Shown here piece after piece: positions 2,464-18,942 of a stretch of DNA of 22,129 bases (positions are counted from its first letter, which is position 1; every line of letters starts with the position of its first letter). Source of the DNA: a virus; the IMG/VR virus record IMGVR_UViG_3300020172_001575, positions 1 through 22,129 of that record. One strand, given 5' to 3'. Made by a program: the position numbers and the translations under genes. The notes under the pieces were generated by a model. It was not told the DNA's origin and searched no databases. It was given only the letters and a program-made list of their open reading frames with translations.

Positions 2464-3489
2464 ATGCTAGAGTCCGTTCAACAAGCCGTCGTACAACTAT
2501 TACCCGCTCGACGTAAAGCCGGCCAAAACGGATGGACAAGTTTTAACGCACCTTGTTGCGTACATAATGGAGAAACCGCTGACACAAGGGGACGAGGCGG
2601 CATAAAAACAACAAATGGACAAATTTCCTATCATTGCTTTAATTGCGGTTATACTAGTAGTTTTATTCCGGGGCGGCATTTAACATTCAAATTTCGTAAA
2701 CTATTATCTTGGTTGGGTGCAGATGATTTAACTATAAGAAAATTAGTCATTGATGCAGTCAGATTAAAAGATCTGGTAGCACCCGAAGATCTAGTCAAAG
2801 AACCTGAAACAGAGATTAGGTTTGAAGCAAGAGCATTGCCTGAAGAAGCCAGGAATATAATTGACCTAGCATCATTCTATGCCACTGGTGATTACAACAA
2901 CGTGCCTGCTGCACTACTAGCTGGTATAGAGTATGTGCATCGTAGACAGATAGATATAGAAAAATATAAATTTTACTGGACTCCCGAAGAAGCATATAAT
3001 CTACATCGCAGAATCATCATTCCGTTTTATTATCAAGGTGAGACGATTGGGTATACCGCACGAGCCATGGTGGATGGTATTAAGCCCAAGTATTACAGTA
3101 GTCATCCTGCAGACTTTGTGTTCAACTTGGATATGCAACAACGGGATTGGCAGTTTGTCGTTGTGTGCGAAGGACCGTTTGACGCAATGAGCATTGATGG
3201 TGTTGCATTGAGTGGCAGTGAGGTATCGGACCAACAAGCCGAACTAATTGATCGACTACAACGTGAAGTTATAGTTGTGCCTGATGGTGATCGCGCCGGT
3301 AAGAAATTAATTGACCGTGCTATAGAACTAGGATGGACTGTGAGCTTTCCGGTGTGGTTAGAAACGTGCAAGGACATTAACGAGGCAGTAGTTAAATATG
3401 GTAAGTTGTTTGTGCTAAAGACCATACTAGATGCAAGAGAAACCAGTAAGTTAAAAATTGAGTTAAAGAAGAAACGTTTGTATGCTTGA
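2464..3489 (+). CDS. 61: DNA primase, T4 gp61-like (zinc ribbon + Toprim)
   Basis: Predicted primase that makes RNA primers for lagging-strand synthesis together with the replicative helicase encoded two genes downstream. The N-terminal zinc ribbon is visible as C31-x2-H34 and C58-x2-C61 ('CCVH...HCFNC'). The Toprim catalytic core is at about residues 230-300, with the invariant Glu in 'VVCEGPFDA' (E236) and the DxD in 'VVPDGDRAG' (D274, D276). Length, 341 aa, is close to T4 gp61 (342 aa, from memory). The ATG lies 6 bases after a sigma70-like -10 box with no ribosome-binding site, so initiation may be leaderless. The stop overlaps the next start by 8 bases (ATGCTTGA). The primase identity is confident; assignment to the gp61 branch rests on length and neighbours. 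Confidence 0.9.
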   Translation: MLESVQQAVVQLLPARRKAGQNGWTSFNAPCCVHNGETADTRGRGGIKTTNGQISYHCFNCGYTSSFIPGRHLTFKFRKLLSWLGADDLTIRKLVIDAVRLKDLVAPEDLVKEPETEIRFEARALPEEARNIIDLASFYATGDYNNVPAALLAGIEYVHRRQIDIEKYKFYWTPEEAYNLHRRIIIPFYYQGETIGYTARAMVDGIKPKYYSSHPADFVFNLDMQQRDWQFVVVCEGPFDAMSIDGVALSGSEVSDQQAELIDRLQREVIVVPDGDRAGKKLIDRAIELGWTVSFPVWLETCKDINEAVVKYGKLFVLKTILDARETSKLKIELKKKRLYA

Positions 3490-4384
3490 TAAAATAAAAG
3501 GGTTTCACATTGAACCAACAAATATCTGTACATTAAAATGTCCTAAATGTTCAAGAACAAAATTTATAGAACAGTTTCCTAGCAAATGGAAAAATCAACA
3601 ATTAAATTTAGAACATTTGAAAAGTTTCATTGACATTCCGTTAGATGGAAAATTAATTAGTCTATGTGGCGACTACGGAGATCCTATATACTACGATCAA
3701 TTATTTGATTTAGTACAATGGGTAAAACAAAATGGAGCAAATATATCTTTGCATACAAACGGAAGTTATAAAACTAAATCTTGGTGGCAGGAATTAACTT
3801 CGTATCTAGATAAAAACGATACCGTAATTTTTGCTATAGACGGTGTTCCGGAGAATTTTACCGAATATAGAATCAATGCAGATTGGGATTCAATTAAAAT
3901 TGGTATAGAAGAAACTACAAAAATAACTAAAACCGTATGGCAATACATACCCTTTAAGTACAATATTAATAGTATCAGTAGTGCAGAAAAATTAAGTCGT
4001 GAACTGGGATTTACAGAATTTAAACTACTTCAAAGTTCTCGTTGGGATTCAATTAATGATCCATATCGGCCTGCAAACGAATATCGTATTATACATGATA
4101 AAGAAATAAAATTTAAACAAAATGAAAGAGCAATAAAAATTGTACCTCGATGTAAAAATACAAATACTGATCATTTTATAACTGCTGGTGGATTTTATGC
4201 ACCATGCTGTCATGTACCAAATCATAACTTTTATTATAAAACAGAGTTCTATAAAGATAAAAACAAGTACGATATAAGTAAGACTACAATTACAGAAGTA
4301 CTCAGAGAAACTAAAAATTTTTTTAATAATCTAGAAACAACTAAACCAACATACTGCATTTACAATTGCCCTGATTATGACTAA
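3482..4384 (+). CDS. Radical SAM protein with SPASM-like C-terminus
   Basis: This 300-aa radical SAM enzyme has the cluster-binding motif C16-x3-C20-x2-C23 ('TNICTLKCPKCS'). 'CGDYGDPIYY' stands in the place of the usual GGEP SAM-binding motif, and 'ISLHTNGS' forms the next core strand. The C-terminal part has further cysteines ('PRCKNTN', 'YAPCCHV', 'TYCIYNCPDYD'), suggesting one auxiliary Fe-S cluster of SPASM/twitch type. Such enzymes generate a 5'-deoxyadenosyl radical and often modify peptides; the substrate here is unknown. The gene is wedged between primase and helicase with 8-base overlaps on both sides. It is much more AT-rich than its neighbours (17-28% GC on two hand-counted 60-base lines), which points to insertion of a foreign cassette into the primosome operon. 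Confidence 0.85.
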   Translation: MLDKIKGFHIEPTNICTLKCPKCSRTKFIEQFPSKWKNQQLNLEHLKSFIDIPLDGKLISLCGDYGDPIYYDQLFDLVQWVKQNGANISLHTNGSYKTKSWWQELTSYLDKNDTVIFAIDGVPENFTEYRINADWDSIKIGIEETTKITKTVWQYIPFKYNINSISSAEKLSRELGFTEFKLLQSSRWDSINDPYRPANEYRIIHDKEIKFKQNERAIKIVPRCKNTNTDHFITAGGFYAPCCHVPNHNFYYKTEFYKDKNKYDISKTTITEVLRETKNFFNNLETTKPTYCIYNCPDYD

Positions 4385-5804
4385 AGACTACAACGCCGAT
4401 ATACAAAAACTATTTTTAGAGATGATGCTGCAAGACGCAGAAACATATGTGCGTGTGCAGAACATTTATAATCCTGAAAACTTCGATCGTAGTCTACGTA
4501 CTACTGCAGAGTTTATTAAAAAACACAGCGATGATCATAAAACATTACCTACTAGGGATCAAATTAAAGCAACTACAGGGGTAGAACTACGCCCAGTCCC
4601 GGACATGATTGAAGGACACTATAACTGGTTCTTGGAAGAATTTGAAGGCTTTAGTCGTCGCAATGAACTAGAACGTGCTATCCTTAAAGCAGCAGACTTA
4701 CTAGAAAAAGGCGATTATGATCCAGTAGAAAAATTAATCAAAGATGCTGTACAGATTAGTTTAACTAAAGACATGGGCACAGACTACTTTGAAGATCCTA
4801 GAGCTCGACTAATGGCAATTAGGAGCAACAACGGGCAAGTAAGCACAGGATGGCCTACTATGGACGCTAGACTGTTTGGTGGTATGAATAGAGGCGAGCT
4901 TAACATCTTTGCTGGCGGATCAGGGTCTGGTAAAAGTTTGTTTATGCAAAACATTGCCATTAACTGGATGACTGCAGGACTCAATGGTGTGTTCCTTACA
5001 CTGGAACTTAGTGAAGGTCTTACTGCTATGCGTATGGATGCCATGGTAGCAAACTGCAGCACCAAGGAAATCTTTCGAGATCTAGACACATTAGAAATGA
5101 AGATTCGCATGGTGGGCAAGAAGTCCGGCAAGTTACGTATCAAATACATGCCAGCACAGAGCAATGTGAATCAAATACGTGCATACTTGAAAGAATTAGA
5201 AATACAAACAGGTATGAAGGCAGACTTTATCATGGTTGACTATTTAGATCTTGTTATGCCAGTTAGTGCCAAAGTCAGTCCCAGTGACCTGTTTGTCAAA
5301 GACAAATATGTGTCAGAAGAACTACGTAACTTAGCCAAAGAGTTTAACATCTTGATGATCACAGCGTCGCAGTTGAATCGTAGTGCAGTTGAAGAAATTG
5401 AGTTTGATCATAGTCATATTAGTGGTGGTATAAGTAAAATTAACACAGCAGATAATGTGTTTGGTATTTTCACCAGTAGGCAAATGAAAGAGCGTGGTCG
5501 CTATCAAATACAACTTATGAAAACACGCAGTAGCAGCGGCGTGGGTACCAAAGTAGATCTTGAATTCAACATTGAAAGTCTACGCATTACAGATCCTGGT
5601 GAAGATGCACAATCAGAAAACGGCGGCCATGGACACCAGACTGGTCGGGGTATCATGGATCAAATCAAGAGTACTAGTACAGTTACTCCCATGATTGCTG
5701 CTAAACCTCGGGAAGGCTTTAACATTGAAAATAAAGTTCAAGCCACCGTTGATAGTACTAAATTAAAAAATATGTTGGCCAGTTTAAAAACCAAAACAGA
5801 ATGA
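4377..5804 (+). CDS. 41: Replicative DNA helicase, DnaB/T4 gp41-like
   Basis: Hexameric replicative helicase of the RecA-fold DnaB family. The Walker A motif is 'GGSGSGKS' (residues 180-187), Walker B is 'FIMVDYLDL' (284-292), and the DnaB-type 'ASQLNR' sensor motif is at 330-335. 'MKTRSSSGVG' (381-390) is the likely arginine-finger/loop region. Residues 1-130 form a helical N-terminal domain. The total length of 475 aa equals T4 gp41 from memory. It should unwind DNA at the fork and partner with the primase at 2464. Its ATG overlaps the radical SAM stop by 8 bases (ATGACTAA), and its own stop overlaps the next gene by 4, so the whole block is one tightly coupled operon. Confidence 0.93.
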   Translation: MTKDYNADIQKLFLEMMLQDAETYVRVQNIYNPENFDRSLRTTAEFIKKHSDDHKTLPTRDQIKATTGVELRPVPDMIEGHYNWFLEEFEGFSRRNELERAILKAADLLEKGDYDPVEKLIKDAVQISLTKDMGTDYFEDPRARLMAIRSNNGQVSTGWPTMDARLFGGMNRGELNIFAGGSGSGKSLFMQNIAINWMTAGLNGVFLTLELSEGLTAMRMDAMVANCSTKEIFRDLDTLEMKIRMVGKKSGKLRIKYMPAQSNVNQIRAYLKELEIQTGMKADFIMVDYLDLVMPVSAKVSPSDLFVKDKYVSEELRNLAKEFNILMITASQLNRSAVEEIEFDHSHISGGISKINTADNVFGIFTSRQMKERGRYQIQLMKTRSSSGVGTKVDLEFNIESLRITDPGEDAQSENGGHGHQTGRGIMDQIKSTSTVTPMIAAKPREGFNIENKVQATVDSTKLKNMLASLKTKTE

Positions 5805-6286
5805 ATAGCGAAACTATAGACTTTGAATTTCATCTATTATCGGAGTATTGGAACCAACCACCTCAAGCAAAAATTGCAGTTGACAATATTGAATACTTCA
5901 ATGATGTTGTTCCTAAAGGACCACATGTTATAAAATTTACACATACTTGTGACTTCGATAAGCCACATCAATTAACCTTGACCAGATCCGGCAAAGATGA
6001 CAGACAATGTAAAACATTACCCAATGGAAAAAAGTTAGATCAAATTTTGATATTAGAAAAACTTAAAATTGATGGCGTAGATATACGAAACATTGTTTGG
6101 TCCAAGAGCATTAATGTAGCCGAGTACCCAGAGCCCTGGGCCACTGAACAACGTGCTGCAGGACACTTGCTAGAAGAAGAAGCCATAGGTGTCACAACAT
6201 TTGGGCATAACGGAACATGGTACTTAGATTTTACTAGTCCATTTTATGTTTTTATCATGCGCTGGATGGGCGGAGGTCCAGAATGA
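5801..6286 (+). CDS. Hypothetical protein, 161 aa, probably beta-sandwich
   Basis: I do not recognise a named family. The protein has alternating hydrophobic strands ('AKIAVDNIEYFNDVV', 'HVIKFTHTC', 'HQLTLTRSG', 'LILEKLKIDGVDI') suggestive of an all-beta fold. A conserved-looking aromatic tail follows ('EYPEPWATEQ', 'GHNGTWYLDFTSPFYVFIM'), similar to small conserved phage proteins I have seen in marine myovirus genomes. No signal peptide or transmembrane segment is evident. It overlaps both neighbours by ATGA and sits between the helicase and the aminotransferase-like gene, so it is expressed with the replication/modification operon rather than with late genes. The function is unknown. Confidence 0.75.
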   Translation: MNSETIDFEFHLLSEYWNQPPQAKIAVDNIEYFNDVVPKGPHVIKFTHTCDFDKPHQLTLTRSGKDDRQCKTLPNGKKLDQILILEKLKIDGVDIRNIVWSKSINVAEYPEPWATEQRAAGHLLEEEAIGVTTFGHNGTWYLDFTSPFYVFIMRWMGGGPE

Positions 6287-7098
6287 TTGAATATAACGGT
6301 ATACAATTAACTAAAAAGCTAATTCCTGTAACAGATACATATATGCAAGAGTTAAAAGAGGGATGGTATAATAACTCACAAACTACAGTTGGTAATAATG
6401 ACTTTATACCAATGGCCGACGAGTGGTTTAAGAGTACTCGTATCAACAACTTGCAGGGCTGGGATCAGTTTCCTTGTACAGATATTATATTAGGCTGTAC
6501 TCATTACATTGAATCTATTGTTTTAAAATACGGGTGGAATGGATTCCAAATCTTACCCGAAGATTATGCATACTACGGACTAATGGGTAAGTTTGGTATT
6601 GAAGTTGGCAATTTAGCACCTAATGTTCCTTTATTAGTATCTTTACCAAATTGGAAATATTCTGATCTACGTCCCGAGTGGGCGGCAGTATTACAGGAGT
6701 GCGAGCAAAAGAACATTGATATTCACATCGACATGGCCTGGATGACGACAGCTAAAGATATAGCGATAGATCTAAATCACCCCAACATAAAGTCCTTTGC
6801 AATGAGCATGAGCAAGTATAACATGCAATGGAATAGAATTGGATTACGCTGGACTAAACAACGAACCATGGATTCAATTACTATTTTTAATCACTATTAC
6901 GGAGATGTAAACAATGGTACTGTATCATGTGGTGCATATATGCTAAACAATATTTCACGTGATTATGTATGGGATACATACGGCACAAAATATAATTCTT
7001 TATGTGAAGATCATAATTTAATCAAGACCAAATTATTACATGTAGTTAAAATTCCTGGCAATGATTATCCTGTTGGAATTGGGCATTTATTAGCATGA
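6283..7098 (+). CDS. Short PLP-dependent aminotransferase-like protein (fold type I)
   Basis: The 271-aa protein carries the ordered signature of the large domain of fold-type-I aminotransferases. 'DIILGCTHYIESIV' (67-80) occupies the position of the cofactor-phosphate loop. 'LVSLPNWKYSDL' (118-129) resembles the NPxNPTG strand, with N123 as the ring-contacting Asn. 'IHIDMAWM' (147-154) matches the D-x-A-Y motif, with D150 to bind the pyridine nitrogen. 'SMSKYNMQWNRIGLRW' (175-190) matches SxSK...RxG, with K178 as candidate Schiff-base lysine. Usual family members are 350-400 aa; this one lacks most of the C-terminal small domain. Both ends overlap neighbours by ATGA. It may transaminate an unknown substrate with the next gene's oxygenase, or be a non-catalytic derivative. 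The fold call is fairly firm; activity is inferred. Confidence 0.65.
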   Translation: MIEYNGIQLTKKLIPVTDTYMQELKEGWYNNSQTTVGNNDFIPMADEWFKSTRINNLQGWDQFPCTDIILGCTHYIESIVLKYGWNGFQILPEDYAYYGLMGKFGIEVGNLAPNVPLLVSLPNWKYSDLRPEWAAVLQECEQKNIDIHIDMAWMTTAKDIAIDLNHPNIKSFAMSMSKYNMQWNRIGLRWTKQRTMDSITIFNHYYGDVNNGTVSCGAYMLNNISRDYVWDTYGTKYNSLCEDHNLIKTKLLHVVKIPGNDYPVGIGHLLA

Positions 7099-7694
7099 CA
7101 TTAGATTTTGCACTAATTGAAAAAAGTATCCAATATGCACTTGACAGTTTAAAATCAAGTGCAATTGTTTGTCCGGGACTATTACATGTATCAGAATTAT
7201 TGGATCCGGTATTACTTGTAAAATTACAAGATTATATATTTGATGATAGACTAGTATGGGAACGCCAAGAAGACCCACTTGCATTATCACGATACTTTGG
7301 TAGGAAAAAAATAAACTGGATTCCGGATTCTGTAATTGAGGAAACCCACATGGTACTTGATGGGCTCACTGACTATCTTAATCAACGTTTTAACAAACAG
7401 AATAAATTTGAAGGACTTTCCATATGGAAAGATGAGCACACATATCAGGTTTCCTTGCATACAGATAATCCCAAGATTGACATGTCTGTTCAAATTTACT
7501 TAGATGGCAATGATACAATGGATTTGGGTACAAGCTTTCAACTTGATGATACAGTAATTAAACTCCCTTACAAAACTAATTGCGGATACTTAATGGACAA
7601 CAGACAGAAGATCTCACATTTTTATAATGGAAAGTCACCTGAAAATTACCATCGTTACAGCCTTTATGCTGTTTGGGCTAACGCAAATAAATAG
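7095..7694 (+). CDS. Probable 2-oxoglutarate/Fe(II)-dependent oxygenase
   Basis: This 199-aa protein shows the double-stranded beta-helix signature of phage-type 2OG-Fe(II) oxygenases. The iron ligands would be H122 and D124 in 'SLHTDNP' and H175 in 'QKISHFYNG', with R187 in 'YHRYSLYAVW' to bind 2-oxoglutarate. The strands 'MSVQIYLDGND' and 'TNCGYLMDN' fit the core between them. Such enzymes hydroxylate proteins, nucleic acids or small molecules; the substrate is not evident. It is the last gene of the overlapping operon starting at 2464, overlapping the aminotransferase-like gene by 4 bases. Its TAG stop lies inside a late-promoter-like box that serves the next transcription unit. Confidence 0.7.
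   Translation: MTLDFALIEKSIQYALDSLKSSAIVCPGLLHVSELLDPVLLVKLQDYIFDDRLVWERQEDPLALSRYFGRKKINWIPDSVIEETHMVLDGLTDYLNQRFNKQNKFEGLSIWKDEHTYQVSLHTDNPKIDMSVQIYLDGNDTMDLGTSFQLDDTVIKLPYKTNCGYLMDNRQKISHFYNGKSPENYHRYSLYAVWANANK
7686..7693 (+). promoter_or_regulatory. T4-type late promoter box for the NTase/ligase-like operon
   Basis: AATAAATA lies 20 bases before the TTG at 7713, across the stop codon of the oxygenase gene. It differs from the T4 late box TATAAATA at the first base. Predicted transcription start is around 7699. The box is A/T only, and coding constraint contributes, so it is less certain than the boxes at 9808 and 10813. Confidence 0.45.
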
Positions 7695-13454: not shown

Positions 13455-13838
13455 ATGGCTTACTCAGGGCAAGTCTTAGATCATTACGAAAATCCTCGCA
13501 ACGTTGGTAAACTTGACAAAACGGATCCCGCAGTAGGTACCGGATTAGTAGGTGCGCCGGCTTGTGGTGATGTATTGCAATTACAAATCAAGGTAGAACA
13601 CGATGTCATTACAGATGCAAAATTTAAAACCTATGGATGCGGTAGTGCCATTGCGTCGAGTTCGCTCATCACAACGTGGCTCAAGGGCAAAACGCTGGGT
13701 GAAGCTGCAAGCATCAAAAATACTGAAATCGCGGAGTCTCTTGCGTTACCTCCAGTCAAGATACATTGTAGTATCCTGGCCGAGGACGCTATTAAAGCCG
13801 CGCTAGCAGACTACAAATCCAAACATCAGAATGCTTAA
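13455..13838 (+). CDS. iscU: Fe-S cluster assembly scaffold IscU
   Basis: A full-length (127 aa) and apparently functional IscU. It holds the nascent [2Fe-2S] cluster on C37, C62 and C105, with D39 and H104 also in place ('APACGDV', 'YGCGSAIASSS', 'VKIHCSILAEDA'). The chaperone-recognition motif LPPVK (98-102) is intact, so transfer through host HscA/HscB is plausible. The sequence is very close to proteobacterial housekeeping IscU, including 'MAYSGQVLDHYENPRNVG' and the C-terminal 'AEDAIKAALADYKSKH'. No iscS, hscA or fdx gene is present nearby, so sulfur and chaperones must come from the host. It has its own sigma70-like promoter and AGGAG RBS. GC is higher than in the next gene (48% on one 60-base line), suggesting recent acquisition from a bacterium. 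The stop overlaps the next start by 8 bases. Confidence 0.96.
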   Translation: MAYSGQVLDHYENPRNVGKLDKTDPAVGTGLVGAPACGDVLQLQIKVEHDVITDAKFKTYGCGSAIASSSLITTWLKGKTLGEAASIKNTEIAESLALPPVKIHCSILAEDAIKAALADYKSKHQNA

Positions 13839-15513
13839 TGTTTTATTTTATCATGCAAATGATACTATCAACTTATCTATTTCGGATAAAGAGATTTGGC
13901 TAGGCACTGCAGCTCTTTATCTTAAAACACATATTGAAAATAACTGTAAGGATATTGCTGATAAAGTAAATTGGCTTTTGCCAAAGCAAAGAAAGATGTC
14001 CAATGATGCATTAATTGATTATTGCATCACTAATCGGGTTGATTTTTTATGTACCAGTCATTATATTTGGAATCATTCGTTTTTACTTAATCAATTGAAA
14101 TCTATTAGACAAATGTTACCTGGTGTAACATTTGTTGCCGGTGGGCCAAGTGTTGATGTTCACATTGCTGAAGATTTTTTTGCAACACATCCGTACATTG
14201 ATTATGCAATATACGGATCCGGTGAATTTGCATTTGCAGACTTAATTTCTAGTCTACTAGAAAATAAAAAATTAATATCATTCAACACATCAAATATTGC
14301 CTGGTTTGATGATCAAAAAAATAAAACAATAGTTGCCAATTTTAAATATGTTCCACAAACAAAAGTAAGTCCTTTTTGTGCCAATGAAGAGTTTTTTACT
14401 GACATGGTCAAGGAACAGCAGCAGGATAACATAAACGTGGTATTACCCTATGATTTAACAAGGGGATGTCCTTATTCGTGTACATTTTGTGATTGGAATA
14501 GTGGATTAAGTAATAAAGTCACCAGACGCAAGGAAACTTATCAACAGGAAATTGATTTGTTTCAAAAATTAGGCATACACAACATTTATCTGTCGGATGC
14601 CAATGTTGGTCAATACCTCGAAGATATTGACCTGATTGAGTACATGGCCAAAAAGAATATAGAAGAACAAGCAAGATTTACTATTGATGGCAATCTTAGT
14701 AAACTAAGAGTAGAAAACAATCTTAAGATATTTCATTTGGCAGCGCAGGGAAATTTAATGAATCCAGACTGGGGATTTATGATTTCAGTACAGGACATAG
14801 ATCGGTCTGTTTTGAAAAACATCGAACGACCAGATATTGGTTGGGAAAAATATAAAGAAGTTATTACAGAGCTTACTGTAACGTATCCACATATATCACC
14901 AGTGGTGCAAATGATCCAGGGCTTACCTGGGCAAACAGTGACTTCTTGGAGAAAATCACTAAGTGAGGTTATTAAATACAATGTAAAAATTTGTGTTTTT
15001 TTAAGCGAATTACTTCCCGCTAGCCCTGCAGTAATGGATCCTGAATATCAGAAAAATTTTAAATTCACGTATAGTAATAGTGAACGGTATGGTGGAAAAG
15101 AATTGTTTCGTGGAACATTCCCGGAATCATGCTATAGCTTTACTAAAGAAGATCAAGTTGAAATGACATTGCTAACAATGATCTATTCGTCATTGGCAAA
15201 CTTGAAAATATTAAATCCTGACGCTGTAGAACATATTAATATTGAGTATTTGATAGATAGATTTATACTTTCGCCGGAATATACAATACTTAAAGAAAAT
15301 TTGTACAATAATTGGTGTAACGACAAATTTTATTTTACAAAGAATTTTAACGGAAAATATGATACAAAGATATCTGCTTGTTCCTCAATGGCCACTTCCA
15401 CTGAATGGAGTTCTGACTTAGCATTTCTTTCTTTTGTATTAAAAAATAGTGGTACAAAATATAAAAAAATACTATTAGATATTATTAGTAATAACAAAAT
15501 GGAAATGGCATAA
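13831..15513 (+). CDS. Cobalamin-binding-type radical SAM protein
   Basis: This 560-aa enzyme has an N-terminal Rossmann-like B12-binding-type domain (about 1-150: 'VDFLCTSHYIWNHSFLLNQL', 'VTFVAGGPSV', 'IDYAIYGSGEFAFADLI'). The radical SAM core follows, with C213-x3-C217-x2-C220 ('TRGCPYSCTFCDWNSG') and 'NIYLSDANVG' and 'VQMIQGLPGQT' as later core strands. The DxHxxG cobalamin motif is not evident, so B12 may be bound base-off without a His ligand or not at all. The ~200-residue C-terminal region is unassigned. Family members methylate unreactive carbons or build thioether or ring structures; the substrate is unknown. It sits between iscU and iscA, overlapping them by 8 bases and 1 base, and is markedly AT-rich (22% GC on one line). 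Confidence 0.85.
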   Translation: MLNVLFYHANDTINLSISDKEIWLGTAALYLKTHIENNCKDIADKVNWLLPKQRKMSNDALIDYCITNRVDFLCTSHYIWNHSFLLNQLKSIRQMLPGVTFVAGGPSVDVHIAEDFFATHPYIDYAIYGSGEFAFADLISSLLENKKLISFNTSNIAWFDDQKNKTIVANFKYVPQTKVSPFCANEEFFTDMVKEQQQDNINVVLPYDLTRGCPYSCTFCDWNSGLSNKVTRRKETYQQEIDLFQKLGIHNIYLSDANVGQYLEDIDLIEYMAKKNIEEQARFTIDGNLSKLRVENNLKIFHLAAQGNLMNPDWGFMISVQDIDRSVLKNIERPDIGWEKYKEVITELTVTYPHISPVVQMIQGLPGQTVTSWRKSLSEVIKYNVKICVFLSELLPASPAVMDPEYQKNFKFTYSNSERYGGKELFRGTFPESCYSFTKEDQVEMTLLTMIYSSLANLKILNPDAVEHINIEYLIDRFILSPEYTILKENLYNNWCNDKFYFTKNFNGKYDTKISACSSMATSTEWSSDLAFLSFVLKNSGTKYKKILLDIISNNKMEMA

Positions 15514-15833
15514 TGATACAACTAACTGAAATAGCGGCAAAAAAAGTTTTAAAGCAACTAGAAAAAAGAGGACAGGGTATTGGTATACTAGTCGGTGTTC
15601 GTACTACTGGGTGCTCGGGTCTTGCTTACAAACTAGAGTACGTTGACAAAACAGCAGATGATATCATACAGTATGAAAGCCATGGTGTAACAGTTTTTGT
15701 AAGTCCCAAAGACCTTCCTTACATTGATGGTATGGTCATGGATTACAAACGTCAAGGTCTTAACGAAGGGTTTGACTTCATTAATGAAAAAGAACGCAAC
15801 CGTTGTGGATGCGGAGAAAGTTTCCAGATTTAA
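15513..15833 (+). CDS. iscA: A-type Fe-S carrier protein IscA
   Basis: This 106-aa A-type carrier receives a cluster from the IscU scaffold and passes it to apo-enzymes, especially [4Fe-4S] proteins such as radical SAM enzymes. The three invariant cysteines are present: C34 in 'TTGCSGLAYKLEY' and C98, C100 in the C-terminal 'RCGCGESF'. Full-length bacterial IscA is about 107 aa, so it is complete. IscA and ErpA are hard to separate by eye; position beside iscU favours IscA. The start codon overlaps the radical SAM stop (TAATG), and the next gene starts directly after its TAA, so it is co-transcribed with iscU, the B12-type radical SAM gene and the exonuclease gene. Confidence 0.93.
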   Translation: MIQLTEIAAKKVLKQLEKRGQGIGILVGVRTTGCSGLAYKLEYVDKTADDIIQYESHGVTVFVSPKDLPYIDGMVMDYKRQGLNEGFDFINEKERNRCGCGESFQI

Positions 15834-16532
15834 ATGATAATAGAAAAATTTAATTATACCCCCCTAGCTAGAGAAAGCGTAGAGGGCAAGCGCCATTACG
15901 CATTGCCCGATGGCAGTCGTGTGCCCAGTGTTACTACAATACTAGAACGTACTAAACCACAAGAAGCTCGACAAGCATTACAAGAATGGCGAAATCGTGT
16001 TGGCCATGAACGTGCTCAACAGATTACTACAGAAGCAGCCAATCGTGGAACACGTATGCATACCTATCTTGAGCGTTATGTTAAGAACGACGACCTAGGT
16101 GAATTTCCCACGAATCCATTTGCACAACCAAGTTGGTTTATGGCTGCACAAGTTATACTCGAAGGACTTAAACACGCCGACGAGTATTGGGGTAGCGAAG
16201 TGCCTTTGTATTACAGCGGTTTATATGCAGGTACAACAGACCTGGTGGGTGTTTGGAAAGGGCAACCTGCAATCATGGACTTCAAACAAACCAACAAGCC
16301 AAAAAAACGTGAGTGGGTCGATGATTACTTTTTGCAATTAGCTGCCTATGCCGTAGCGCACAACGACACACATGGTACTAATATAAATACTGGCGTTATC
16401 TTAATGTGTGCAAAACCCGCAGATGAAAACGACACACCAAAGTATCAAGAATTTGTTCTAGAACCCAAAGACTTTGCATACTGGAGTGATCAGTGGATGC
16501 GTAGGGTTGAACTTTACTATCTTACTGCATAA
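15834..16532 (+). CDS. PD-(D/E)XK exonuclease, RecB/MGME1-like
   Basis: A 232-aa nuclease of the PD-(D/E)XK superfamily. Motifs in order: 'RGTRMHTYLERY' with H76 and E80, E122 in 'WGSEVPLYY', the first catalytic Asp in 'AGTTDLVGVW' (D136), 'AIMDFKQTNK' with D149 and K151, and the RecB-type 'QLAAYA' (Q168, Y172). This matches single-domain phage exonucleases related to Cas4/RecB and mitochondrial MGME1, which trim single-stranded ends in recombination and replication. There are no Cys clusters, so it is not an Fe-S Cas4/AddB type. It is the only replication-type gene in the Fe-S operon. It starts immediately after the iscA stop, and its stop overlaps the third radical SAM gene by one base. Confidence 0.85.
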   Translation: MIIEKFNYTPLARESVEGKRHYALPDGSRVPSVTTILERTKPQEARQALQEWRNRVGHERAQQITTEAANRGTRMHTYLERYVKNDDLGEFPTNPFAQPSWFMAAQVILEGLKHADEYWGSEVPLYYSGLYAGTTDLVGVWKGQPAIMDFKQTNKPKKREWVDDYFLQLAAYAVAHNDTHGTNINTGVILMCAKPADENDTPKYQEFVLEPKDFAYWSDQWMRRVELYYLTA

Positions 16533-17509
16533 TGGATCGCATCAAATTTAAATTTTTAGATATCCCTATTATTAGATCCTGTAATCTAGGATGCGGTGGA
16601 TGTTTAACTTTTTCTGACAGTAAACAAATTAAAGGAACTGTGCGATTAGAAGATAGTTCGGGATGGCTAGAACACTGGGCAACTAAATTAGACCCCGAGA
16701 TTGTAACAGTATTTGGTGGAGAGCCATTGCTACACCCGCAATTTGTTTCGTGGTGTAAAGAAGTTAGAAGACTGTGGCCCAACTGCGAACTTAGGATTAA
16801 TACCAATGGATACTATCTTGACAAGTTATATGATAAAATACAAGAGTTATTCACCGAAGATATTAAACCACAGTTCATTGTAAGTATTCAAACAGGGCAT
16901 GAACCTTACTATAGTAACGTGGTAAAAAATATTGAGCATCTCAAAGATTTAGTACTAGCACATTTTCGAGCAAAATATCCAAATAAGACTGTAGTTTGGA
17001 ACTTATGGTTAGACGAAGAAGAAATATATAAAAAATGGTGGCGCATTGATATCAACGGAGTAGATTCCGGGATACGTATTACTCGCTGCGAACAGCACAA
17101 AATCCCATGGCAAGCACATTATCGAGGTGTCGAAGGCTCGCTGAAACCTTTTTACAATTACAATGATCTCTGGCACTCGGACAATCACAAATTTTGTCAA
17201 GCTAAAAACTTTGTAAATTTATACAAAGGCAAGTTATATAAATGCCCGACTGTGGCAGTTCTAGAGCACACACTTGAGACGTTTAATTTAACCGACGACC
17301 CGGATTGGTCTCCTTATCTAGAAAATTATCCCGGCTTAGATATAACAGCACAGAACGAACAAATTGCCGCATGGTTCGATGATCAAAAAAATCCAGAAAA
17401 AGTCTGCAACATGTGTGGGTTTTCGGGTCCAAAATACACAAATGGGCATTTAAATAGGCACGAACTTAAAGAGGGCTGGAAATATCAGGTCATTGACATT
17501 GATTCTTAG
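16532..17509 (+). CDS. Radical SAM protein with SPASM-type auxiliary cysteines
   Basis: A 325-aa radical SAM enzyme. The cluster motif is C17-x3-C21-x2-C24 ('IRSCNLGCGGCLTF'), with the SAM-binding 'VFGGEPLLHP' (G62-P65 region) and 'LRINTNGYYL'. The C-terminal cysteines 'KFCQAKNFVNLYKGKLYKCPTVAVLEH' and 'KVCNMCGFSGP' fit a SPASM/twitch auxiliary cluster, the class involved in peptide and sugar modification. The substrate is unknown and no obvious precursor peptide gene lies nearby. It shares the 7-residue string WFDDQKN, and a 21-base stretch with one mismatch, with the B12-type radical SAM gene. It is the last gene of the iscU operon; a late promoter for the spike gene follows. Confidence 0.87.
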   Translation: MDRIKFKFLDIPIIRSCNLGCGGCLTFSDSKQIKGTVRLEDSSGWLEHWATKLDPEIVTVFGGEPLLHPQFVSWCKEVRRLWPNCELRINTNGYYLDKLYDKIQELFTEDIKPQFIVSIQTGHEPYYSNVVKNIEHLKDLVLAHFRAKYPNKTVVWNLWLDEEEIYKKWWRIDINGVDSGIRITRCEQHKIPWQAHYRGVEGSLKPFYNYNDLWHSDNHKFCQAKNFVNLYKGKLYKCPTVAVLEHTLETFNLTDDPDWSPYLENYPGLDITAQNEQIAAWFDDQKNPEKVCNMCGFSGPKYTNGHLNRHELKEGWKYQVIDIDS

Positions 17510-17553: not shown

Positions 17554-18942
17554 ATGGCAGTCACACAAATATCTAGAATACAACACCGTAGGGGGATGGA
17601 GCAAGACCTACCACAATTAGCATCGGCTGAATTGGGGTGGAGTATAGATACTAGAAAACTATACATAGGAAATGGTACTACAGAAGAAGGTGCTCCTTCT
17701 GTTGGGGTAACTGAAATTCTAACACAATATTCGCTTACTAATCTAGCTAGCCTATTGGGTACCTACATTTTTCAAGGTACACGAGCTAGTTATACTGTAC
17801 AAACTGGTCCTAGTTCCATTTATCCATCATACAGAAGCTTTCAAGACAAATTAGATGACTTTGTTAATATACGAGACTTTGGAGCTTTTGGTAACGGTAT
17901 TGATGACGACACCGATGCTATTAATCGAGCATTTTCACAAATATATAAAGCAGGCACAGTAGAAACTCAGCCACTAGCTCGTCGTACAATCTATTTTCCA
18001 GGCGGAACATATATTGTTAGTGACACTATAAATATTCCCACGTATGCTACTGTATCCGGGGAAGGATACAATTCAAGTATTATTAAACAAACTCAAGGTA
18101 ATAAACCATTAGCAAATATCACTGATAGTAAATTTCAAAGTGGTTCATCAATTGGATCGCTTAGTGCCACACTGCCTGATTCTGTCAAGATCACCGGCAT
18201 GCAATTTTGGAATGCTAACTCACAAATTACTCAGCCATTGTTAAATATTGACAGTGCTTCTAATTTACAAATTTCAGGTTCGTATTTTAGATCAAATGTT
18301 TCACCAGGGTATTATCCAAACTTAGTTCATATATCAACATCAGTTGGTTCAACAAAACAACTTTCAATTGAACGTTGTATTTTTGCTAGTGCCGGTAATG
18401 GTATTTCTGTTCTAGCCAGTGGCGTAAGTTCTATTCAATTGATAGGAACTCAATTTCATAATATATCAAACGTTGCAATTGACTACGGTGACTCGGACAA
18501 TATCAGTGGTCTCCAAAATTCATTTACTAACGTAAGGGTAATTTCTTCTGCAATAAAAGCAACCAATTGGTTTAATATTGGAGATAGATACACTAATTCA
18601 GGCCTGGCAGGATCAAGAGATGGTCTATCTCTTGGTAATCTTTTTATGGCCTACGGTAACGCTGCACCTATTAGTACCGTTACATCGGTCATTACTAGAA
18701 TCGTTGCCAATACCTCTGGGGAAATTAAATACGAAATGAGTAATTCCTCGGCTCGTAGATTTGGTATATTTTACTGGGCCAATGATGGGATCACTACTAC
18801 TTTTAGTGACAACTTCACTGAAACTACTACTAGTTTAGGTGCAAATATATTTGCTAATAGCAATTGCTTGATAGGTTCAATGACTACAGATGCAGCTAAC
18901 TTTAAGTACGGTATTACTCAATTCTTTACACCTACTCAATAA
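17554..18942 (+). CDS. Tail fibre/spike protein with pectate-lyase-like beta-helix
   Basis: This 462-aa late protein has two recognisable parts. Residues 6-45 ('ISRIQHRRGMEQDLPQLASAELGWSIDTRKLYIGNG' in pieces) are the short N-terminal attachment module found on many marine phage fibres. Residues about 103-380 begin with 'VNIRDFGAFGNGIDDDTDAINRAF', the signature opening of the Pectate_lyase_3 right-handed beta-helix. They continue with parallel-helix turns such as 'RTIYFPGGTYIVSDTINIPTYATVSGEG'. The C-terminal ~80 residues likely form the distal cap. Such proteins bind or cleave host surface polysaccharide, but active-site residues cannot be fixed by eye. It is transcribed from its own late promoter with a good RBS. 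Confidence 0.85.
   Translation: MAVTQISRIQHRRGMEQDLPQLASAELGWSIDTRKLYIGNGTTEEGAPSVGVTEILTQYSLTNLASLLGTYIFQGTRASYTVQTGPSSIYPSYRSFQDKLDDFVNIRDFGAFGNGIDDDTDAINRAFSQIYKAGTVETQPLARRTIYFPGGTYIVSDTINIPTYATVSGEGYNSSIIKQTQGNKPLANITDSKFQSGSSIGSLSATLPDSVKITGMQFWNANSQITQPLLNIDSASNLQISGSYFRSNVSPGYYPNLVHISTSVGSTKQLSIERCIFASAGNGISVLASGVSSIQLIGTQFHNISNVAIDYGDSDNISGLQNSFTNVRVISSAIKATNWFNIGDRYTNSGLAGSRDGLSLGNLFMAYGNAAPISTVTSVITRIVANTSGEIKYEMSNSSARRFGIFYWANDGITTTFSDNFTETTTSLGANIFANSNCLIGSMTTDAANFKYGITQFFTPTQ

Follow-up and report, generated by a model that had tools for sequence, protein, structure and literature searches.

A compact phage protein with a predicted fold-type-I PLP-enzyme fold, and the probably mobile gene cassette that carries it

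The 271-aa protein described here, encoded in the IMG/VR virus record IMGVR_UViG_3300020172_001575 (22,129 bases, analysed over its whole length and hereafter called the window), shows a known fold, predicted to be that of the fold-type-I PLP enzymes, in a compact form that is new, and its gene sits in a probably mobile cassette larger than the pair of genes initially proposed. We think it rather probable that this protein is a catalytically competent, size-reduced PLP enzyme, that it is the component met most regularly in a small phage cassette which is itself mobile, and that it takes part in amine-making chemistry of the kind outlined below. The cassette most likely consists of a 161-aa partner, the PLP enzyme and a 2OG/Fe oxygenase-like protein, often joined by a GATM-type amidinotransferase and sometimes by a radical SAM protein. 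The relevant features of the window are the following.

2464-3489, same strand as the PLP-gene run: Toprim primase, replication context
3482-4384, plus strand: radical SAM protein, member of a cluster found near the PLP gene in other loci
4377-5804, plus strand: DnaB-like replicative helicase, a context gene thought to lie outside the cassette
5801-6286, plus strand: 161-aa partner protein, its gene overlapping the PLP gene that follows by ATGA
6283-7098, plus strand: predicted compact fold-type-I PLP enzyme, 271 aa, ATG start, identified from its model, fold matches and conservation
7095-7694, plus strand: 2OG-Fe(II) oxygenase-like protein, 199 aa, with the motif H122-x-D124, H175, R187
3482-4384, 13455-13838, 13831-15513, 15513-15833 and 16532-17509: radical SAM and Fe-S gene group, within one 22-kb phage stretch

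The first six of these genes are all on one strand. Between 4377 and 7694, three successive stop/start overlaps of 4 bp, each reading ATGA, are found at 5801, 6283 and 7095, and because the same overlap recurs at each junction, the helicase, 161-aa, PLP and oxygenase-like genes can be regarded as a chain of four, in a manner that suggests translational coupling. The overlap between the PLP-like and the oxygenase-like genes, which had been pointed out in the first-pass annotation of this DNA, is therefore real, with ORFs at 6283-7098 and 7095-7694 and a junction reading GC-ATGA-CATT. Besides the three radical SAM genes, one of them with a B12-binding domain, the window also encodes a NifU_N/IscU-type scaffold and an A-type Fe-S carrier. 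The replication genes are flanked by a Concanavalin-A-like (Laminin_G_3) protein at 1675-2406 and by a pectate-lyase-like protein with an Mtd_N domain at 17554-18942, both of which are probable tail or receptor-binding genes.

Assignment of the 271-aa protein to the type I PLP fold relies on structure prediction. The AlphaFold2 model built with 55 homologues reached a pLDDT of 95.8 and a pTM of 0.92, and a Foldseek search of the PDB with this model returned 684 matches at E<=0.001, of which the best 50 were all fold-type-I PLP enzymes with a probability of 1.00. With VIA-align 2, the best 1000 chains all scored Z>=8, and the best 50 rows, with 240-263 residues aligned, ranged from Z 17.1 to 16.0, so that no closest subfamily can be named. 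The best of them, MppQ (PDB 8tn2; Z 17.1, rmsd 3.8), aligned over 262 of the 271 residues, model residues 6-271 being matched to chain residues 35-388. Class I/II aminotransferases, C-S lyases, HisC (2f8j), CobD (1lc8) and MalY (1d2f) share the fold as MppQ does (up to 262/271 residues, Z about 16-17), and the order Asp...SxSK...RxG is common to the aminotransferase-type enzymes and the window protein, which however is approximately 100 residues shorter than the aminotransferase, C-S lyase, HisC and CobD chains, and only 7-15% identical. The fold originally suspected from sequence motifs is thus what the model predicts, but the accompanying statement that the protein lacks most of the small domain was too strong: because the model aligns through to the C-terminus of full-length enzymes, this C-terminal domain is trimmed but still present. 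An earlier model, based on 14 sequences and with a pLDDT of 66.7, likewise showed only type I PLP folds among the matches displayed. O2/PLP arginine oxidases ranked first with that model and were no longer top matches with 55 sequences, and therefore no inference was drawn from that ranking.

Conservation points to an active site retained within this reduced frame. D150, K178, S175, H148, W153, G71, T73, Y95, Y98, G187 and R189 do not vary among the 55 sequences aligned, whereas R185 is replaced by Lys in 2 of them (Arg in 53/55) and A152 is Ala in 53/55. The residues originally singled out (N123, D150-M-A152-W153, S175-M-S177-K178 and R185-I-G187) all occur at the positions given for them and in the right order, and K178 and D150, on whose conservation the first-pass annotation had staked its interpretation, are never substituted. 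N123, which had also been taken as a fold-type-I residue, is present in the window protein but is not invariant, as its column holds Asn in 33, His in 12, Asp in 7 and Ser in 3 sequences. K178 is predicted to be the Schiff-base lysine and D150 the pyridine-N aspartate, while S175, R185 and G71-x-T73 would be the probable phosphate pocket. The same D150/K178 register was obtained in two independent comparisons: with E. coli GadB by hhalign (E 1.2e-4), where the two residues fall on the GadB HxD and HK positions and hence on the catalytic Asp and Lys, and with the class I/II aminotransferase profile (E 0.15, itself not significant), which aligns N123 with the NPTG Asn in addition to D150, K178 and R185-x-G187. 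The fold and the lysine together support the 271-aa protein as a PLP enzyme; PLP binding itself is what we infer.

The initial label of PLP-aminotransferase-like was right as far as the predicted type I PLP fold goes, but the aminotransferase part was not borne out. In aspartate aminotransferase (AAT), R386 is the C-terminal Arg that binds the substrate alpha-carboxylate, and N194 is the Asn of the NPxNPTG region, a residue that the family, with N123 in 33 of 55 sequences, does not consistently keep. No alignment column past residue 226 of the window family has Arg or Lys in at least 44 of the 55 sequences, and hence the carboxylate-binding Arg of aminotransferases has no conserved counterpart; because of this, and because none of 41 family members matched Aminotran_1_2 (PF00155) in Pfam, we did not file the protein as an aminotransferase. 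Loss of that Arg hints at an unusual substrate. It is possible, if doubtful, that the protein is instead a decarboxylase proper, namely a trimmed relative of the group II PLP decarboxylases (GAD/AADC type) that would make a free amine or a polyamine analogue. GadB is indeed the best sequence-level match; Pyridoxal_deC (PF00282) is the sole recurrent Pfam match, seen weakly in 19 of the 41 members (best E 0.0013); and the invariant H148-x-D150 followed by A152-W153 resembles the HVDAA(W/Y) signature of the PF00282 set. These matches are however local, covering about 60 residues of proteins of very different size (466 aa for GadB, 271 aa for ours), an E of 0.16 against the PF00282 set as a whole falls short of significance in profile comparison, and structurally the class I/II aminotransferases and C-S lyases rank first, tied within 1 Z. 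Apart from GadB and the weak PF00282 hits, no PLP-enzyme sequence profile matched significantly.

When searched alone against Pfam, PHROGs, NCBIfam and PDB sequences, the window protein gave no match above noise, yet relatives are plentiful among viruses: successive pattern and tblastn scans of IMG/VR yielded 18, then 67, then 110 of them (80 kept), with identities to the window protein as low as 46%. The PLP-protein and oxygenase-like genes were both absent from INPHARED phages by tblastn, and a family profile search found no member in GTDB genome contigs; because of the many IMG/VR relatives and the lack of any in GTDB, the family is viral, and indeed phage-only, in the collections searched. 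One member had already been deposited, as the BFVD entry A0A6J5KXV0, an unnamed protein of an uncultured Caudovirales phage (282 aa, 34% identity, TM 0.91, E 1.6e-30), an uncharacterised entry that carries no functional assignment. Reduced size, noticed at first in the window protein, is a trait of the whole family, whose members measure 264-302 aa as called (median 275, 55 sequences), and pairwise dN/dS values of 0.064-0.075 between the window protein and relatives 85-87% identical to it show that the gene is under purifying selection. A phage-only PLP family of approximately 275 aa would show how far a large enzyme superfamily has been pared down in nature, to a minimal form.

The 199-aa product of the downstream gene is best called 2OG oxygenase-like. 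H122-x-D124, H175 and R187 are invariant among 28 homologues, and the HxD...H...R spacing is typical of 2OG-Fe(II) oxygenases. Searches of Pfam, PHROGs and PDB sequences gave no significant match to a 2OG family, nor was hhalign comparison with two putative phage 2OG proteins significant, and it is for this reason that the protein is filed by its motif.

To see how these genes travel together, genes were re-called around 77 PLP loci, which were reduced to 50 at 90% identity, partners were located by tblastn, and linkage was defined as presence within 4 kb of the PLP gene, with tallies counted from locus rows; the loci come from metagenomes, with some redundancy among them, and most lie on incomplete contigs. 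Co-occurrence of the two genes in other phages, proposed as a check on the original idea, was confirmed, as an oxygenase-like gene was found in 37 of the 50 non-redundant loci and, conversely, among the 23 loci in the closer oxygenase clade that extend at least 1.5 kb each way, 20 carry a PLP gene (loci as counted, not de-replicated). In the three exceptions (L313, L317 and L321), where the oxygenase-like gene lies beside a helicase, no PLP gene was found anywhere in the record. The proposed pair is therefore genuine but too narrowly drawn, since it omits the 161-aa gene, which lies directly upstream of the PLP gene, adjacent and codirectional, in 37/50 loci, and the amidinotransferase, linked in 23/50. 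Either the oxygenase or the amidinotransferase is present in 45 of the 50, and at L064 every partner is absent. As to the 161-aa family, 2 of 28 members gave a CBM60 match that was weak and not significant (E 0.041). Some loci also have, no more than 4 kb from the PLP gene, a relative of the radical SAM cluster represented at 3482-4384.

The cassette is shared among unrelated phages, and its surroundings vary. Among the 50 loci, the PLP gene was found next to the helicase/82-aa gene in 33, next to gp46/47 with a SegE-like endonuclease family in 9, next to a terminase in 2 and next to a DNA polymerase in 1, as well as in others; the DnaB-like helicase is the commonest neighbour and is missing from the other contexts. 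Gene order and strand within the cassette differ among loci; where the helicase is the neighbour, the 161-aa and PLP genes are in many cases antiparallel to everything around them. The position in a replication operon noted at the outset is thus true of the window, given the primase at 2464-3489 and the helicase at 4377-5804, but it is one of several contexts across loci. Because the helicase-side site is one of several insertion contexts, no role in replication is implied; because the cassette is kept independently at different sites, a shared function can be argued.

The amidinotransferase, absent from the window and roughly 380 aa long in other loci, is GATM-like. In PDB-profile comparisons it matched human arginine:glycine amidinotransferase (AGAT, E 2.1e-23) as well as SxtG, HsvA and StrB1-type enzymes (E 2.1e-23 to 1.4e-16 over the whole set), and the catalytic Asp, His and Cys are kept (D190, H225 and C363 in the numbering of L052). 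In L001 and L021-L023, whose PLP proteins are 85-87% identical to that of the window, the amidinotransferase gene sits between the PLP and oxygenase genes, whereas in the window these two meet directly at the ATGA of 7095-7098, which suggests recent loss or gain. This link is weaker than that of the oxygenase, because the gene is very common in IMG/VR viruses (593 of 600 pattern matches confirmed) and a PLP gene lies within 4 kb in only 12 of 75 amidinotransferase loci; the amidinotransferase is hence a frequent but non-exclusive partner.

Based on the fold, the invariant active-site residues, purifying selection, linkage across unrelated contexts and the amidinotransferase catalytic residues, we propose that the PLP enzyme, through a Schiff base at K178, would produce or rearrange an amine by decarboxylation or transamination, starting from an amino acid or an amino-acid adduct; that the amidinotransferase, where present, would transfer a guanidine group from arginine onto this amine; and that the oxygenase would hydroxylate the product, the amine ending up guanidinylated, hydroxylated or both. 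PLP binding apart, we infer here the type of reaction and also the order of steps, which is taken from the enzyme classes. The carrier phages would thus probably hold a small portable chemistry kit, and the faithful linkage to an oxygenase-like gene together with the frequent linkage to an amidinotransferase point to an undescribed phage biosynthetic pathway. A bolder version, which we consider unlikely, is that the cassette makes a new modification, both guanidinylated and hydroxylated, on a nucleobase or on some other molecule of phage or host, with the minimal PLP enzyme acting on a bound, rather than a free, amino substrate. The amino-acid or nucleobase adduct suggested in the first-pass annotation may be what the enzymes make.

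It is similarly unlikely, in our opinion, that the cassette serves DNA hypermodification, with a nucleobase adduct in phage DNA as the substrate of both the PLP enzyme and the oxygenase. PLP-dependent steps do occur in the thymidine hypermodification of ViI/M6-like phages, the cassette genes adjoin helicase/primase, gp46/47, DNA polymerase or terminase genes, and the lack of a conserved C-terminal Arg/Lys would fit a substrate other than a free alpha-amino acid. Early-gene neighbourhoods are however general insertion sites, as a SegE GIY-YIG endonuclease-like family neighbours the gp46/47 context, and no gene of the thymidylate-synthase/dCMP- or dUMP-hydroxymethylase family was found in 20 cassette records, including contigs of 209 kb and 315 kb, all possibly fragments, which weakens the classical 5-hydroxymethylpyrimidine route, while other routes may apply. 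Modification of a peptide or a virion protein, with radical SAM enzymes as extra partners, seems less probable still: a radical SAM gene of the window cluster touches the PLP gene in five loci (L047, L067, L051, L015 and L093) and the window has three radical SAM genes along with Fe-S assembly genes, but the cassette does not always include a radical SAM protein, and no gene for a precursor peptide was identified. That the protein binds PLP as a sensor or scaffold without catalysis, as its reduced size, the lost carboxylate-binding Arg and the variable N123 might suggest, is very improbable given the invariance of K178, D150, S175, H148, W153 and G71-x-T73 and the enzyme partners that the gene keeps.

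With the size-reduced PLP enzyme and its partners as the preferred reading, the cassette also places viral "glycine amidinotransferase" genes, treated in surveys as isolated auxiliary metabolic genes, in a concrete setting. Viral amidinotransferase (GATM, K00613) has been recorded for viruses of green sulfur bacteria (PMC8226683), and creatine-pathway genes in ocean viruses, where GAMT is enriched, are treated in PMC11360552; the amidinotransferase is shared with the cassette loci, but no PLP or oxygenase partner was found described for these genes. The cyanophage clusters described as secondary-metabolite-like in PMC7824862 (section 3.4.10) combine 2OG oxygenases with carbamoyltransferases and a halogenase. 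They resemble the proposed cassette in being phage-borne and biosynthetic, and in having 2OG oxygenases whose substrates are amino-acid or sugar products, although that paper makes no mention of a PLP enzyme or an amidinotransferase. A phage cassette combining PLP enzyme, oxygenase and amidinotransferase was not found described in the open-licence literature. The usual neighbours of the viral amidinotransferase are a 167-aa family (31 of 75 loci) and a 145-aa family (26 of 75), seen in L234 and others of L229-L303. Finally, on a phage-like contig titled as a Bacteroidetes MAG (L129, 851-6106), an amidinotransferase gene precedes a run of several putative 2OG-oxygenase genes.
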